Source of the DNA: Novosphingobium ginsenosidimutans
GTDB taxonomy: Bacteria > Pseudomonadota > Alphaproteobacteria > Sphingomonadales > Sphingomonadaceae
DNA length: 64,000 nt
Assembly: GCF_007954425.1 (NCBI RefSeq)
Contig: NZ_CP042345.1
Coordinates: forward strand, 1,920,001 to 1,984,000
Reading direction: 5' to 3'
A model generated the notes under the pieces. It saw only the letters and a list, made by a program, of their open reading frames with translations. It did not search any database and was not told where the DNA came from. Of the stretch, positions 31,685 to 40,594 are shown piece after piece. The position numbers and the translations under genes were made by a program. The first letter of the stretch is position 1. Each line of letters starts with the position of its first letter.

Positions 31685-31709
31685 AACCAAGTGCGGCCGC
31701 GAATGTTTC
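31685..31709 (-). promoter_or_regulatory. Near-consensus EcfG-type promoter (GAAAC variant)
   Basis: Minus strand: GAAAC at 31709-31705, 16 bases, GGTT at 31688-31685. One mismatch in the -35 element compared with GGAAC. Position and spacing fit the 84-residue gene whose start is at 31650. Confidence 0.35.
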
Positions 31710-31765
31710 GGCACGATCCTGCCCTTCGCTGCTTGCGTTTGGCAGCGTACCAAGGAGCTCAAGCA

Positions 31766-32446
31766 GTGGATGTGCGTCGCAATCATGCGAAGGTTTTCGC
31801 GCCAACCGATTTCACCGAGGCAAGCCTGCCGGCCGAGGAGTGGACCTGGTTGAAGCGCCATTGGCAGCCCGAACGGCTGACCGCTGAGCGGATCCTGTGC
31901 GATACCGATTGCTCAAGCGAAACGCTGTGGCTGCTGGACGATGCGGTGACCGCCCGGATCGCCCGCGATGATCAGGCCCATCTGGTCGAAATCGCCGTCG
32001 ATGGTCCTGGCAGCCTGGCCTGCGGCTGGGCGATCAGCGGCGATCAGCTGTCGCCGTGGCGGGTCCAGGTGCGCCGGACCGGGATGGCGCGCGCGCTGCG
32101 GGGGCTGGCGATTGAACAAATGGCACAGATGGCACCGGTCTTCCACGCCCGGTGCCGGGCGGTCATCCATTCCGAGGTGCTGGAACTTGCCGAACAGTTT
32201 GCCCTGGCCCGGCGTCGCACGGCGCGGAGCCTGCTCGCCGATCGTCTGAGCGGCTATTACAATGCCTTTGGTGAAACCACGATTACGATCACGCACAATG
32301 TGCTGGCCCAGCGGCTCAATCTGCGCCGGGCCACCGTGACGCTTGCTCTACAGGAGCTGGAAGGGGCCAAGGCGATCCGTTCGCACCGGGCCCGGATCGA
32401 ACTGAAAGACCGCGAGCGCTTGATCGCATTGGCGCATGAGTACTGA
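31766..32446 (+). CDS. Crp/Fnr family transcriptional regulator
   Basis: The product has 226 residues from GTG 31766, which has AAGGAG eight bases upstream. Longer in-frame reading to 31628 would overlap the start of the divergent gene and lacks a ribosome site. Residues about 15-120 are a divergent cyclic-nucleotide-type beta-roll (DFTEASLPAEEWTWLKR, LVEIAVDGPGSLACGWAI). The C-terminal winged helix is clear: ITITHNVLAQRLNLRRATVTLALQELEG, with the recognition helix RRATVTLALQEL. No FNR-type cysteine cluster is visible and the cAMP-binding RE...SR signature is not present, so the signal is unknown. It sits inside the stress island and just upstream of a candidate small RNA. Confidence 0.85.
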   Translation: MDVRRNHAKVFAPTDFTEASLPAEEWTWLKRHWQPERLTAERILCDTDCSSETLWLLDDAVTARIARDDQAHLVEIAVDGPGSLACGWAISGDQLSPWRVQVRRTGMARALRGLAIEQMAQMAPVFHARCRAVIHSEVLELAEQFALARRRTARSLLADRLSGYYNAFGETTITITHNVLAQRLNLRRATVTLALQELEGAKAIRSHRARIELKDRERLIALAHEY

Positions 32447-32472
32447 TTGCCCGAAAAAAATTGCGATGATCC

Positions 32473-32498
32473 GGAACCCTCGTGGGCCGAACGGTGTT
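32473..32498 (+). promoter_or_regulatory. EcfG-type promoter of a candidate small RNA
   Basis: GGAAC at 32473-32477, 18 bases, GTT at 32496-32498 (equivalently N17-TGTT). It lies 27 bases after the Crp-type gene stop. No plus-strand reading frame follows before a strong terminator that ends near 32594, so the transcript would be about 90 nucleotides and non-coding. Confidence 0.5.
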
Positions 32499-32504
32499 TT
32501 TCCA

Positions 32505-32594
32505 AGTGCCGGTCCGATCGACCCCCTTCCCGCCATGGACCGGTATTGCCTGTGCCCCCCGCCGTATCCTCCCACGGTGGGGGGCACATATTTT
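32505..32594 (+). ncRNA. Candidate general-stress small RNA with C-rich loops
   Basis: Between the EcfG-like promoter and a T-rich tail lie two hairpins. The first (32505-32547) has an 11-bp stem, with CCGGTCC/GGACCGG at its core and A-U and G-U pairs extending it, and a loop of about 21 bases whose centre is ACCCCCTTCCCGCC. The second (32551-32588) has a stem of about 15 bp (TGTGCCCCCC / GGGGGGCACA plus CCGT / ACGG), an 8-base loop ATCCTCCC, and the tail TATTTT. Both loops are complementary to Shine-Dalgarno-like GGAGG/GGGAAGG stretches. This is the architecture of GsrN in Caulobacter, a stress-sigma-dependent RNA with a C-rich loop, and of CCUCC-loop RNAs of other alphaproteobacteria. Homology is not shown. 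The 5' end is an estimate from the promoter. Confidence 0.55.
32551..32594 (+). terminator. Strong terminator hairpin of the candidate small RNA
   Basis: Stem arms 32551-32565 and 32574-32588, one internal G-U pair, loop ATCCTCCC, tail TATTTT on the plus strand. It also sits 26 bases beyond the stop of the convergent proline-rich gene, but on the minus strand no U run follows, so it is primarily a plus-strand terminator. Confidence 0.75.
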
Positions 32595-32619
32595 CACTGG
32601 ATAGCGATTTGGGGCTGGT

Positions 32620-33066
32620 TCAGCCGGGCCTGCGGCGGCGCGTCTGCCCCGCTTCGCGCTGCTGGCATTGATCGCGCACAGTGGCAGAACAGGGCGGATA
32701 GACCTGTTGCCCGGCCGGTGGTGGCGGCAAGGTGTTGTTGACATATGTGACGACCCGCTCGCCCGGACTTCCGCTGGGCGGCGCGCCAACCGGCGGTGTG
32801 GAGGCCGGCGGCGTCTCCATCGGCGGTGCTGTGACCGGCGGAGCGGTTTCCGGCGGTAGGTTGACCGGCGGAGTAGCCACCGGCGGGGTCTGACCTGGGG
32901 CTGGCGGTGCGATCGGCGGAGCTTCGACCGGCGGGGGCGGCCCGTCCGGCGCAGGTGGAGGCGAGGGCGGTACTTCGACCGGCGGTTCGGCGGGTCGCGG
33001 CTGCTCCTGTGATTGCCCGGCGACGCTCATCAGCGCCAGCGGCAACGCAATCAGCAACTTGGACAT
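32620..33066 (-). CDS. Exported proline-rich protein
   Basis: The 148-residue precursor has a signal peptide (SKLLIALPLALMSVAG, probable cleavage near SQS). Residues about 25-105 are a proline-rich repeat region with units such as TPPV, APPV and EAPP recurring every five to seven residues. The last 40 residues are non-repetitive, with VVTYVNNTLPPPP, a C-x7-C pair (PPCSATVRDQCQQ) and a basic end. It is likely a periplasmic or envelope-spanning spacer. AAAGGAG precedes the ATG at 33066. An EcfG promoter at ideal spacing lies upstream, back to back with that of the glycosyltransferase operon. I do not recognise a characterised family. Confidence 0.78.
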   Translation of the reverse strand: MSKLLIALPLALMSVAGQSQEQPRPAEPPVEVPPSPPPAPDGPPPPVEAPPIAPPAPGQTPPVATPPVNLPPETAPPVTAPPMETPPASTPPVGAPPSGSPGERVVTYVNNTLPPPPAGQQVYPPCSATVRDQCQQREAGQTRRRRPG

Positions 33067-33096
33067 AGGGGTACTCCTTTTGCTTGGGTTCGACGA

Positions 33097-33121
33097 AACC
33101 CCAAGCATTTGCGCCAGTTCC
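33097..33121 (-). promoter_or_regulatory. EcfG-type promoter for the proline-rich protein
   Basis: Minus strand: GGAAC at 33121-33117, 16 bases, GGTT at 33100-33097. The -10 is 30 bases from the start codon at 33066. It lies next to the oppositely oriented motif at 33133-33158. Confidence 0.6.
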
Positions 33122-33132
33122 CCTCTGTAACC

Positions 33133-33158
33133 GGAACCACGCACGGCCGGGCGCAGTT
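33133..33158 (+). promoter_or_regulatory. EcfG-type promoter for the GT4-GH130 operon
   Basis: GGAAC at 33133-33137, 18 bases, GTT at 33156-33158 (N17-AGTT). The leader to the ATG at 33242 would be about 75 bases. The consensus C before GTT is replaced by A, so this is a slightly weaker match than its divergent partner. Confidence 0.5.
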
Positions 33159-33241
33159 GAGCGGGGCAAATCAGCAAAGTGAGTTGCCATGACCCGACAG
33201 CCCCTTTCTGCCCCTTCCATTACTCCGTCTGAGGCCCTGGC

Positions 33242-37163: not shown

Positions 37164-37949
37164 TCAGGCGGCGGCAAGGCCCGGCTGGCGTTCGCGATGG
37201 ACCAGCAAGGCTTGCCAGATGGTGGCCGTGACAGTTTCGGGCTCGAACGGTTTGGTGATCAGATAGGTCGGCTCCGGCCGCTCGCCGGTCAGCAGGCGCT
37301 GCGGGAAGGCCGTGATGAAGATCACCGGCACCGAGAATTCTCCCAGGATGTCCTTGACCGCATCAATCCCGCTCGATCCGTCAGCCAGACTGATGTCAGC
37401 CAGGATCAGGTCAGGAAGCACGTCTTTGGCCATGGCCACAGCCTCATCCCGGGTCCGCGCGACACCGGCCACGGTATTGCCCAGGCTGACGACGATTTTG
37501 CGCAGATGCATGGCGATGATCGCTTCGTCCTCGATGATCATGACCGAGGCGCGGAGCTGAGCTTGCAGCTGCTCGCGCGCGCTGTCGATCATATCGCGCA
37601 CCTGATCTTCGGATGCGCTGAGAATCTCGGCCGACTGGGCGCAGGAAAAGCCCTCGACCATCGTCAGAAGCATCGCTTCGCGCGTCTTGACCGGCAGATG
37701 CGAAATCAGTCCGTCGGCAATGTTGACGGCATGCATCGGATTCCAGATCCGGTGGAACACCCGAAACAGGTTTAGCCGCGAAGCTCCGTCAGGACCCAGC
37801 ATCTCCGGGTCGGCGATGATCGCCTCCAGCATCTCGCGCACGGCCGCATCGCCCAGGGTCTGGGACCCGGAAATTGCCCGCGCATAACGGCGCAGGTAGG
37901 GTAACTCACTAGCGACTCGCTCCCGCAGCGAGGTTCTTTGGTCTGGCAT
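37164..37949 (-). CDS. phyR: General stress response anti-anti-sigma regulator PhyR
   Basis: The product has 261 residues. Residues 1-130 form a sigma-like domain that mimics EcfG (ASELPYLRRYARAISGSQTLGD, REAMLLTMVEGFSCAQSAEIL). Residues about 135-250 are a receiver domain with acidic D141, the phosphoacceptor D185 (LILADIS), the FAT-GUY-type motif FITAFPQ and the conserved lysine in ITKPFEP. When phosphorylated, PhyR binds NepR and frees EcfG. The ATG at 37949 follows AAGGGAG; ten extra in-frame codons upstream are not needed. It is divergent from nepR-ecfG across 157 bases, the classic gene order. Its own promoter is less clear than that of nepR. Confidence 0.97.
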   Translation of the reverse strand: MPDQRTSLRERVASELPYLRRYARAISGSQTLGDAAVREMLEAIIADPEMLGPDGASRLNLFRVFHRIWNPMHAVNIADGLISHLPVKTREAMLLTMVEGFSCAQSAEILSASEDQVRDMIDSAREQLQAQLRASVMIIEDEAIIAMHLRKIVVSLGNTVAGVARTRDEAVAMAKDVLPDLILADISLADGSSGIDAVKDILGEFSVPVIFITAFPQRLLTGERPEPTYLITKPFEPETVTATIWQALLVHRERQPGLAAA

Positions 37950-38010
37950 CGGAACTCCCTTCTCGTCTCGAAGCCCCAAAGTCCTTCATGCCGGAAAATG
38001 TTCCGCACTG

Positions 38011-38035: not shown

Positions 38036-38106
38036 ATACCTTGCGACGGCGCGTCGGCGCGGACGCCCTCCCTAGGGTCGGCTTTCGGAGCAAAGCAAGG
38101 CAAGAT

Positions 38107-38370
38107 ATGTTGAGTCGCAATTCCATTTACTCCGCCCAAGAAGGCGACAGCCCCTATATGCCCGATCGTGACCAGTCCAAATTGCGCGCCAGAGCGCCCC
38201 GGCAGCCTGCCAGCCCAGCAGAAGGACCGGATTTGGCCTTTGACCCGATCGCGGCGGCGCTGCGCCAGTTGCACGAAAGCGTTGCGGCAGAGGAGATCCC
38301 CGACGATTTCCTTGATCTGCTCGATCAACTCGATGACCTTTCCGATGCCGATCAGCCTTCGGCCGAATGA
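38107..38370 (+). CDS. nepR: Anti-sigma factor NepR
   Basis: The product has 87 residues from ATG 38107, or 70 from ATG 38158. The NepR core is clear: AAALRQLHESVAAEEIPDDF and LLDQLDDL, the two helices that clamp EcfG or phospho-PhyR. The N-terminus is basic and unstructured. The first ATG has GCAAGG six bases upstream; the second has AAGG at a long distance, yet gives a more typical NepR length. The stop overlaps the ecfG start as ATGA, so the ratio of the two proteins is probably set by coupled translation. Confidence 0.93.
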   Translation: MLSRNSIYSAQEGDSPYMPDRDQSKLRARAPRQPASPAEGPDLAFDPIAAALRQLHESVAAEEIPDDFLDLLDQLDDLSDADQPSAE

Positions 38371-38960
38371 TGATCGAGGAACGCGAAGAATTGCAGCACC
38401 GTGATGGTGCCGAATCGACCCTGAGCAAGGAGCAATTCAAGCGTGAAGTGATTGCGATCCTGCCCCAGCTGCGCTCCTTCGCGCGCGGGATCTGTGGCAA
38501 CCGGGATCTGGCTGACGATCTGGCCCAGGAAGCCATGATGCGCGCCTGGGCATCGCGCCACACCTTCAAGGTCGGGACCAACTTCAAGGCCTGGATGTTC
38601 ATCATCTTGCGCAACCGCTGTTATTCGATGGCCAAGAAGAATTCCCGGATGGTGACCTGGGATCCGGAGGCGGCTGAGCGGATCCTGGTCGCCCCGGCGA
38701 CCCAGCATGTCGGGATCGATTTGATGGACGTCCAGCGCGCGCTCGAGAAGCTGCCGACCGAGCAGCGCGAGATGCTGATGCTGGTTGCCGCAGACATGAG
38801 TTACGAGGAGGCCGCCGAGATCACCGGCTGCGCCATTGGCACCGTCAAGAGCCGCATCGCGCGCGGCCGTGTGGCGCTCAAACGCTTGCTGGGCGAAGGC
38901 GACGACAGCGAGGATGAAGTCGCGGCCACGGCCGGACGGCAGCGCGCGGGAGAGCGATGA
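38367..38960 (+). CDS. ecfG: General stress response sigma factor EcfG
   Basis: The 197-residue protein is an ECF15-type sigma factor: region 2 with LRSFARGICGNRDLADDLAQEAMMRAW in parts, linker, and region 4 with LPTEQREMLMLVAADMSYEEAAE and the helix-turn-helix GCAIGTVKSRIARGRVAL. It directs RNA polymerase to GGAAC-N16/17-cGTT promoters, several of which lie in this window. A 35-residue Asp/Glu- and Ala-rich tail follows. It overlaps nepR at the start and the kinase gene at the end by 4 bases each. Confidence 0.96.
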   Translation: MMIEEREELQHRDGAESTLSKEQFKREVIAILPQLRSFARGICGNRDLADDLAQEAMMRAWASRHTFKVGTNFKAWMFIILRNRCYSMAKKNSRMVTWDPEAAERILVAPATQHVGIDLMDVQRALEKLPTEQREMLMLVAADMSYEEAAEITGCAIGTVKSRIARGRVALKRLLGEGDDSEDEVAATAGRQRAGER

Positions 38961-40594
38961 GGGCATTGCGGTCGGCCGGGACAATCCGGTCCAACCTGAC
39001 CAAGATCCTGATTGGCGCACTGGTGCCGATGGCGTTTCTAGGCGCCTGGCAGGGCATGCTGACCTATCAGGATTCGCGCAAGCTGGTGTCCGAACGGCTG
39101 CGGGCCAGCGCCTGGGGCATCGCCGAACGCGAGCGCGATCCCTTTATCATTGCCCGTCACTCGCTCCAGATGGTGGCCAAGCTCGACGTCGTGAAGCGGA
39201 TGGGCCCGGACTGTGACCAGCTCATGACCGATGCCCGCAATGGGGCCACCGGGATCACCAATTTCGTCCGGACAGATCGGACGGGTGCAGTGCGCTGCTC
39301 GGGCATTCCCTACCGGCCGGGTGCGACCCTGGCGCAGAACCCCGTCTGGCAGCGGGCCGCGCGGGCTAGTTCCTTCGTGCTTGGCGGGCGGCAGATCGGC
39401 GAGATCTCGCGGCTGCCCGTCGTGTTGGTGTTTCTGCCGCTATTCGATCAGCAAGGTGCCTTTGATGGGACGGTGAGTGCCGGCATCAATCTTGATCGGC
39501 TGGCGCGAACCCTCAAATCCCGGCAACGCGCCCTAGGCGGAACGATTGCGCTGGTCGACCGCCAGGGCCGGGTTGTCCTGACCGAAGGACCATCGCAGTT
39601 CGCTGCGATCCCAACGGCTGCTGCCGGTCTGCAGGAGCCCCAGACGCTGCGGTCGCGCGATGGCCGGCACTGGACCTTTGTGGCCGCGCCGATGTTCGAT
39701 CGCGATCTGTTGGTCGTCTATGCCGAACCCCGTTCGAACTTTGCCAACGCGGCCCTGTCGCGGATCTGGCTGATCCTGGCGTTGCCGCTGCTTGCTGGCG
39801 TGCTGAGCCTGGCCGGCATCTGGTTTGCCACCCAGCGCTATCTGCTGAACTGGTTTCCGCGGCTGCACACCCTGGCCGAGCACATCGCCGAAGAGCGCCC
39901 GATCACGGACCAGGACGATCTCGCTGCTGCCCCGACCGAAATCGCCGACATTGCCGACGATCTGCAGGAAACGGCTCGCAAGCTTAGCCTCAGCCGCGCC
40001 GCCCTGCAGCGGGCTCTTGAAACCCAGAAATCCCTGACCCGCGAACTCAACCACCGGGTCCGCAACAACATTCAGATCATCGTCAGCCTGCTCACCATGC
40101 AAAGCGAAAAGGCAAAGGCGGAACCGGTGCGGGAAATCCTGGACCAGGCGCGCGCCCGCGTTTCCGCAATCGGCCTGGTGCACCGCTACATGTACGATCA
40201 GGAAGAAGATGGGCTGGGCGCGGTTGCGGCGGCGCAGCTGATGTTCGATCTGTGCGGGCAAATCCGCACGTCCGGCCGGCGCAGCACCGAACTGGAGCTG
40301 CAGATCGATGCCGATGCGCATTGCCGGGTCACGTTCGACCATGCCGTGCCGCTGGTGCTGTTTGCACTGGAGGCGATCACGGCCGCTGCGCAGGGGACCC
40401 ACCGGGTCAATGTCGCCCTCCATTCGCAAGATCATGTTTGCCGGCTGGAAGTGGCCGATGATCTGCCCGGAGCCGGCACGCCGCACGGCGATTGCGAGCT
40501 GCTAGGGGCGCTGGCCGAACAGATGGGCGGCCACTTCGGCAGCGAACAGACCGCTACCGGAACTACAACCTGGCTGGAATTTGCCCCAGGTTGA
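38957..40594 (+). CDS. phyP: PhyP/PhyK-like HisKA_2 sensor protein with degenerate ATPase
   Basis: The product has 545 residues. Transmembrane helices at about 14-35 and 270-295 enclose a periplasmic sensor of about 230 residues. A HAMP-like stretch is followed by a HisKA_2 dimerisation domain with ELNHRVRNNIQIIVSLL; the histidine is near residue 366. In the catalytic domain the expected N-box asparagine region is LFALEAITAAAQG and the G-box is DDLPGAGTPHG followed by CELLGALAEQMGG, so key ATP-binding residues look lost. This agrees with PhyP of Sphingomonas, described as a negative regulator of PhyR that behaves like a phosphatase. It is cotranscribed with ecfG (ATGA overlap). Kinases that charge PhyR would be encoded elsewhere. 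Confidence 0.88.
   Translation: MRALRSAGTIRSNLTKILIGALVPMAFLGAWQGMLTYQDSRKLVSERLRASAWGIAERERDPFIIARHSLQMVAKLDVVKRMGPDCDQLMTDARNGATGITNFVRTDRTGAVRCSGIPYRPGATLAQNPVWQRAARASSFVLGGRQIGEISRLPVVLVFLPLFDQQGAFDGTVSAGINLDRLARTLKSRQRALGGTIALVDRQGRVVLTEGPSQFAAIPTAAAGLQEPQTLRSRDGRHWTFVAAPMFDRDLLVVYAEPRSNFANAALSRIWLILALPLLAGVLSLAGIWFATQRYLLNWFPRLHTLAEHIAEERPITDQDDLAAAPTEIADIADDLQETARKLSLSRAALQRALETQKSLTRELNHRVRNNIQIIVSLLTMQSEKAKAEPVREILDQARARVSAIGLVHRYMYDQEEDGLGAVAAAQLMFDLCGQIRTSGRRSTELELQIDADAHCRVTFDHAVPLVLFALEAITAAAQGTHRVNVALHSQDHVCRLEVADDLPGAGTPHGDCELLGALAEQMGGHFGSEQTATGTTTWLEFAPG

Follow-up and report, generated by a model that had tools for sequence, protein, structure and literature searches.

Positions 32473 to 32594 of the window (the whole stretch of 64 kb that was analysed) very probably encode a small RNA whose C-rich loops would be able to pair with mRNAs. 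From its sequence and its relatives, the best-supported reading is an EcfG-induced, GsrN-like, trans-acting RNA. It is quite probable that a transcript of about 90 nt arises here from an EcfG-dependent promoter, takes part in the general stress response, belongs as a probable divergent member to an RNA family near stress genes, and pairs with mRNAs through its loops. The observation made in an earlier sequence-only reading of this DNA is confirmed, and its interpretation is supported and widened. The interest lies more in the unlisted family at stress loci than in the single copy of the window. The broadest proposal, which we put just short of an even chance, is that the Sphingomonadaceae possess a widespread, unlisted family of EcfG-dependent RNAs, in many genomes placed next to nepR and the stress kinase, in which the stems are freely replaced and both loops are kept C-rich. 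Such an RNA would be a two-headed anti-Shine-Dalgarno device, a translational arm of the stress response and the functional counterpart of GsrN, with the window RNA as a remote member.

First, the promoter and the fold of the candidate are considered (Table 1). The sphingomonad promoter motif has been given as GGAAC-N16-CGTT with a flexible -10 element (available text of PMC7083833), and the box in the window is near-consensus because it departs from this motif by one -10 mismatch and a spacer of 17. Judging from the position of the box, the RNA would start near 32505. In the predicted fold, 32505-32516 pair with 32536-32547 to form stem 1, of which eight pairs are kept in all four homologues described below, and the apical region (32517-32535) is unpaired for the most part. 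A linker of 3 nt leads to stem 2, in which 32551-32565 pair with 32574-32588 around a loop at 32566-32573, and TATTTT follows at 32589-32594. A 2-bp mini-helix within loop 1 is also predicted, and it is invariant among homologues. The fold energy has a z-score of -3.69, and none of 200 dinucleotide shuffles was equally stable. The sequence-only reading had described an EcfG-type promoter, a hairpin with a C-rich loop and a terminator hairpin of 15 bp with an 8-base loop and TATTTT. The promoter and the terminator stand as described, and so does the C-rich-loop hairpin except for its length, 12 bp in the prediction instead of 11 bp. It had also been said that no ORF follows the promoter; a mechanical ORF (32436-32741) overlaps the candidate, yet a comparison of the ORFs of the four homologous sequences found no small ORF inside the RNA common to them, in agreement with that claim. 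No match at gathering score was obtained with Rfam 15 over the whole window. The best sub-threshold matches in a stretch of 201 nt were 6C (RF01066; 39.4 bits, gathering score 47), Scr3202 (29.5 bits, 52) and ar14 (RF02344; 27.6 bits, 58.8), and assignment to each of these was rejected.

Table 1. Positions of the candidate RNA elements and of neighbouring genes in the window.
Feature	Position	Strand	Basis
EcfG-type promoter box GGAAC-N17-TGTT	32473..32498	+	GGAAC 32473-32477, TGTT 32495-32498; sequence
Predicted hairpin 1, 12 bp, apical C-rich loop AUCGACCCCCUUCCCGCCA at 32517-32535	32505..32547	+	Folds, four-sequence alignment
Predicted hairpin 2 / intrinsic terminator, 15 bp, loop AUCCUCCC, then TATTTT	32551..32594	+	Folds, alignment
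Crp-type regulator gene (context, outside the RNA)	31691..32446	+	Pfam HTH_Crp_2, the only domain found
phyR, sigma-like domains and receiver	37164..37979	-	Pfam PF22029, PF22233, PF00072
nepR frame (listed ORF; true start possibly further in)	38041..38370	+	Pfam PF18557, 38.5 bits, cut-off 25.7
ecfG-type ECF sigma factor gene	38367..38960	+	Pfam PF04542, PF08281, PF22029; named from domains and place beside nepR
HisKA_2/HWE histidine kinase gene, with Cache domain	38957..40594	+	Pfam PF07568, PF07536, PF02743

Close homologues are found within the genus. By BLASTN in 98 genomes, the source genome included, the RNA has one other relative, which is 83% identical (G054). A covariance model of these two sequences (R1) gave matches at E <=0.01 in 10 of 195 genus genomes, and four are convincing: the source genome, G054, G219 (E = 3.6e-12) and G162 (E = 3.7e-10). 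With a model built from these four (R2), 10 matches were obtained at E <=0.05 in the same 195 genomes, with the same four convincing, and five in 396 genomes of the order, where the source genome alone is convincing. Sixteen loci with weak R1 or R2 matches were inspected together with their upstream sequence (L018-L023, L026, L030-L035, L037-L039); none has the strict GGAAC box in place, and L026 carries a GGAAT version. One of these loci (L033 1501-1609, in G226) shows a strong hairpin with a stem of about 15 bp and a C-rich loop, CCCCCUCCCGCC, without an EcfG box upstream.

All four convincing members carry a box, GGAAC-N16/17-[CT]GTT, 6 to 8 nt ahead of hairpin 1, and the spacers within the box have diverged (65% identity between the window and G054, 31% between G219 and G162). 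The stems are well kept as structures: 91 of the 92 cells in the alignment (23 pairs in four sequences) are standard pairs, against 40-48% for slid partners, and three pairs are altered on both sides. Of 500 shuffles, the observed value was reached by 5 for the percentage paired, 96 for pairs changed on both sides, 10 for such cells, 219 for pair types and 5 for the score; these controls are weak for the close group because it has only four related sequences. The 19-nt loop 1 is predicted to be unpaired in all four, is identical in G054 and differs in G219 and G162 by a 2-nt deletion and changes at its edges. The covariance search and the comparison of stems and loops that the sequence-only reading had suggested therefore turned out positive: homologues with the box and compensated stems exist in the genus, and loop 1 is nearly constant while the box spacer drifts. 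Its second C-rich loop fared unevenly. Loop 2 is AUCCUCCC in two close members, UUCCUGCU in G219 and G162, where the C-rich character is lost and the U-tract after hairpin 2 is absent as well, and CAA in L078, a further candidate of the genus. A C-rich second loop is thus not a constant feature of the genus, even though the wider family described below has strongly C-rich sequences at this place.

The RNA lies near the general-stress genes, a point that the sequence-only reading did not mention. The phyR-nepR-ecfG-kinase locus is 4.6 to 8.0 kb downstream of the RNA end. The distance from the RNA to nepR is 5.7 kb in the window, 3.4 kb in G054, 6.3 kb in G219 and 38 nt in G162, below 6.4 kb in all four cases. 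In G162, the nepR at 38 nt is a second copy (L028 9251-9460), convergent with the RNA gene, and another nepR is located on contig C4. Strict boxes (GGAAC-N16..18-GTT) occur 13 times in the window; scrambled boxes occur 4.8 times on average, and the total alone does not exceed every scramble because their maximum over 87 patterns is also 13. Nine of the 13 fall within 28.6-41.4 kb of the window, and a frame of at least 75 codons starting within 150 nt is lacking for two boxes, of which the one at 32473 is the first to be named here. In the run between 27726 and 41334, boxes precede genes for Ku (28639, minus strand) and hemerythrin (28673, plus), an SDR gene (31313, minus), the divergent genes for a proline-rich protein and a glycosyltransferase (33121, minus; 33133, plus), nepR (38011, plus) and a Transgly_assoc gene (41334, minus). 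The divergent pair is also seen in G054 (L029 10490, minus; 10502, plus).

A wider family was found from the nepR loci of the order. NepR was detected in 59 of 118 order genomes, and the scan set consisted of 60 nepR loci, each about 20 kb long, taken from 58 genomes, that of the window excluded; two genomes gave two loci, and some extra nepR matches were omitted. Twenty loci located 300-400 kb away in 20 of the same genomes served as controls. When a box had to be followed by a C-loop hairpin and a second hairpin, 8 of 235 nepR-locus boxes qualified, against 0 of 25 control boxes and 14 of 1427 scrambled boxes. This criterion missed members with a 2-bp mini-helix in loop 1; the loop parser was relaxed after that result and the controls were rerun, giving 29 of 235 nepR-locus boxes (in 27 of the 60 loci), 0 of 25 control boxes and 25 of 1427 scrambled boxes. 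Nineteen of the 29 form one homologous family, with a GGATAG-type stem, a loop containing GCCCCCC(C)GCU and a terminator stem whose loop is C-rich (ACCCUCCCCCCCC, for example). The other ten lie outside the family and may be chance finds, about four being expected from the scrambled-box rate. All 19 founding members share the strand of nepR and follow the nepR match at a distance of 1.6-1.9 kb; in L079, for example, the box starts 20 nt past the stop codon of the kinase gene. In their alignment, 13 of 24 pairs have changes on both sides and 97.1% of the cells are paired, and none of 500 shuffles reached any of the five measures; in stem 1, only four of nine pairs vary. Apart from a tRNA, Rfam gave no gathering match in six member or candidate loci (L078, L079, L087, L089, L092, L093). 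Below threshold, the member L100 matches Scr3202 best (32.2 bits, gathering score 52).

A covariance model of the 19 founding members (R3), built without the window RNA and without promoter sequence, was used to survey the family. At E <=0.01 it matched 113 of 396 order genomes in 22 of 84 genera, the four weakest genomes lying above 1e-4, and 1 of 385 genomes of the class, itself from the Sphingomonadaceae; both searches used strict filters, by which weak matches are lost. A strict box precedes 29 of the 30 top matches (7 of the 30 are training genomes; of the 23 that are new, 22 have it). Among 20 lower matches hand-picked for genus spread and distance from nepR, 17 have the box. Taken together, 39 of the 43 non-training matches inspected, out of 94 (113 less 19), have an EcfG box. 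The RNA is within 2 kb of nepR in 19 of the 26 matched genomes in which the place of nepR is known, a figure that is partly built in because those 19 are the training members picked at nepR loci. In the other seven (G239, G259, G268, G282, G311, G331, G336), it lies elsewhere or on a different contig. Seven members (L187-L193) lie away from any known nepR or on a different contig; six of them have the box and L190 does not. The family also appeared in plasmid records, where BLASTN with one member gave one match, on an 853-kb replicon of Sphingomonas parapaucimobilis YK209. This copy (NZ_CP155750.1, 145214-145325) scores 113.9 bits with R3 and has the box GGAAC-N16-TGTT. The order there is the sigma factor, two genes (one for a response regulator), NepR, the kinase, the RNA, an entericidin-type lipoprotein gene and tatC. 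The absence of an RNA annotation on this replicon says little because the gene table used lists zero RNA genes. As seen in L252 (5001-5359), this replicon, a plasmid according to its record, carries the general-stress locus in full together with the RNA, and tat and scp genes adjoin. The window's own RNA had no match in the plasmid records.

Does the window RNA belong to this family? It has the family architecture, namely an EcfG box, a C-loop hairpin and a terminator hairpin with a C-rich loop, near nepR. With R3, the RNA (32503-32596) ranks first in the window, at 22.4 bits with E = 0.0013 over 192 kb; at a genome-wide E of 0.01, R3 reported nothing in the source genome. When the window was searched together with seven loci, the top five scores were L093 (32.0), G054 (28.9), the window (22.4), L078 (21.6) and L085 460-529 (21.3 bits). 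The last of these, and L090 547-626 (24.8 bits), have no box and look like ordinary pairs of terminator hairpins. L090 is also the one R3 match in 37 nepR loci without a known member, and R3 gave no match at E up to 1 over the 20 control loci (396 kb). Common descent is likely rather than proven because such box-less pairs also reach the 22.4-bit level of the window RNA. An independent origin at the stress locus, with likeness to the family in form but no relation by descent, would explain why the stem sequences are wholly different and why R2 does not retrieve the wider family, and R3 in turn misses G219 and G162. This has an appreciable chance of being true, about one in three in our estimate, but the score of G054 exceeds both box-less pairs, and the promoter type, the order of parts and the neighbourhood are all alike. 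Because of these points, we moderately favour a common ancestor of the window RNA and the wider family, as far as sequence comparison can tell. Even had it arisen apart, the window RNA would be the counterpart of the family.

EcfG is released once PhyR binds NepR. Under stress, EcfG freed in this way would transcribe the RNA. The unpaired C-runs of loop 1, and of the terminator loop where it is C-rich, would find partners in G-rich parts of mRNAs, among them ribosome binding sites, so that some mRNAs may be repressed and others protected or activated under stress, by analogy with the action of GsrN on katG. No consistent katG pairing site was found in nine katG-type start regions of eight genomes. 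The pattern CGGGAAGGG-N2..12-ATG occurs at 29 sites in four genomes, compared with nine for the reversed pattern, which is an unfair control for ribosome binding sites. Besides an in-frame site common to G219 and G162 (L226, L247), the start of rsmH/mraW is the only one matched in two genomes (G000 and G054) with an annotated-looking frame; loop 1 can form 10 and 9 contiguous pairs there, respectively, and the site falls within the end of the coding sequence of the gene before it. The hints from this search are weak. About 1.3 kb past the right end of the window (L239, G000:C1:1985294), the ribosome binding region of a 102-aa frame contains CGGGAAGGGG, which is complementary to loop 1 over 10 nt. 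The start of this frame is membrane-like, and its first 60 residues have no Pfam match.

These searches yielded no conserved mRNA target, as would also be expected of an EcfG-dependent RNA that binds or titrates a protein through its C-rich loops instead of pairing with mRNAs, and it agrees with such a role that the loops remain C-rich among members with different stems. The characterised C-loop RNAs of alphaproteobacteria, GsrN, PmaR and NfeR1, are on the contrary described as pairing with mRNAs (available texts of PMC5869019, PMC6234868 and PMC10746234), and protein titration is an unlikely alternative to the mRNA pairing preferred here.

Another reading is that the Crp-type gene simply ends here in its 3' untranslated region and terminator, with the box present by chance. 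Indeed, that gene stops 27 nt ahead of the box, the terminator follows on the same strand, and the RNA of G054 likewise has the Crp-type gene ahead of it. In contrast, G219 and G162 keep the box and both hairpins without the Crp gene, G043 has a relative of the gene with no such RNA behind it, and the box is kept and loop 1 held while the spacer drifts. Because the Crp gene is missing beside two homologues, this reading was rejected, and we regard it as very improbable. Close relatives of the Crp-type protein were found in only two of 98 genomes, G054 (67%) and G043 (41%), with weaker matches in four others. The convergent arrangement persists in G219, where the RNA faces the end of a gene for a proline-rich protein that matches the window's by eye, and a similar glycosyltransferase gene is nearby. 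The gene context behind a Crp-type regulator, which had been suggested as a possible novelty, is thus incidental, since the RNA persists without the Crp gene in two of three homologues. A cis-acting leader of the downstream gene was rejected as well, since the next gene in the window (32620-33177) is convergent. The trans-acting, EcfG-induced RNA remains the preferred reading.

6C RNA, the closest Rfam family by score, is actinobacterial. It shares two hairpins with C-rich loops with the window RNA, but it belongs to another phylum, and comparison of the family member L100 with 6C gave nothing at E up to 1. The ar14 or cuckoo RNAs, such as NfeR1, share anti-Shine-Dalgarno motifs in hairpin loops, which in NfeR1 repress ntrB, and the terminator loop of the window RNA holds UCCUCCC; NfeR1 has three hairpins with CCUCCUCCC and an RpoD promoter, whereas the window RNA has two hairpins, no CCUCCUCCC and an EcfG box (available text of PMC10746234). 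PmaR of Agrobacterium, which is induced in stationary phase, has a long stem and an exposed C-rich loop in common with the window RNA, but it is a spoon-like single stem-loop present only in Agrobacterium and one Rhizobium strain, and the available text of PMC6234868 gave no link to EcfG. Across the literature searched, of which subscription journals were mostly outside the scope, the available texts (PMC5869019, PMC10746234, PMC8103513, PMC6234868, PMC7083833 and PMC8632094 included) contain no description of a sphingomonad general-stress RNA, and the terms 'sRNA' and 'small RNA' are absent from the main text of PMC7083833.

The alphaproteobacterial general stress response is known mostly as a transcription switch, and GsrN revealed its post-transcriptional arm in Caulobacter. 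A compact RNA beside phyR, nepR and the kinase in many sphingomonads is a testable candidate for such an arm. With it come a model, coordinates and a predicted promoter for an RNA family that had not been listed before, and its constant loops and variable stems are suited to asking how C-rich loops select targets. Erythrobacter litoralis is a member of the Sphingomonadales. As the outgroup in the GsrN study, it had no apparent gsrN-like gene (available text of PMC5869019). GsrN pairs through its C-rich loop with the katG leader and raises KatG, and in the same text GsrN and the predicted GsrN-like RNAs of Rhizobiales share an EcfG-type promoter, a length of about 100 nt, an exposed C-rich loop in the 5' hairpin and a terminator hairpin, and most predicted homologues lie near general-stress genes (PMC5869019). 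The sphingomonad RNA differs in that the terminator loop is also C-rich in the wider family and that no katG site was found for it. R3 found no sequence homologue outside the family in the class sample. The likeness to GsrN described here is one of features. These features are seen in the window RNA, with its near-consensus EcfG box, its proximity to phyR, nepR and ecfG and its predicted exposed 5' C-rich loop. The earlier comparison with GsrN as a stress-sigma-dependent RNA is thus supported by the conserved box, the compensated stems, the nearly unchanged loop 1 and the position at the stress locus, all of which point to a probable GsrN-type RNA in sphingomonads.
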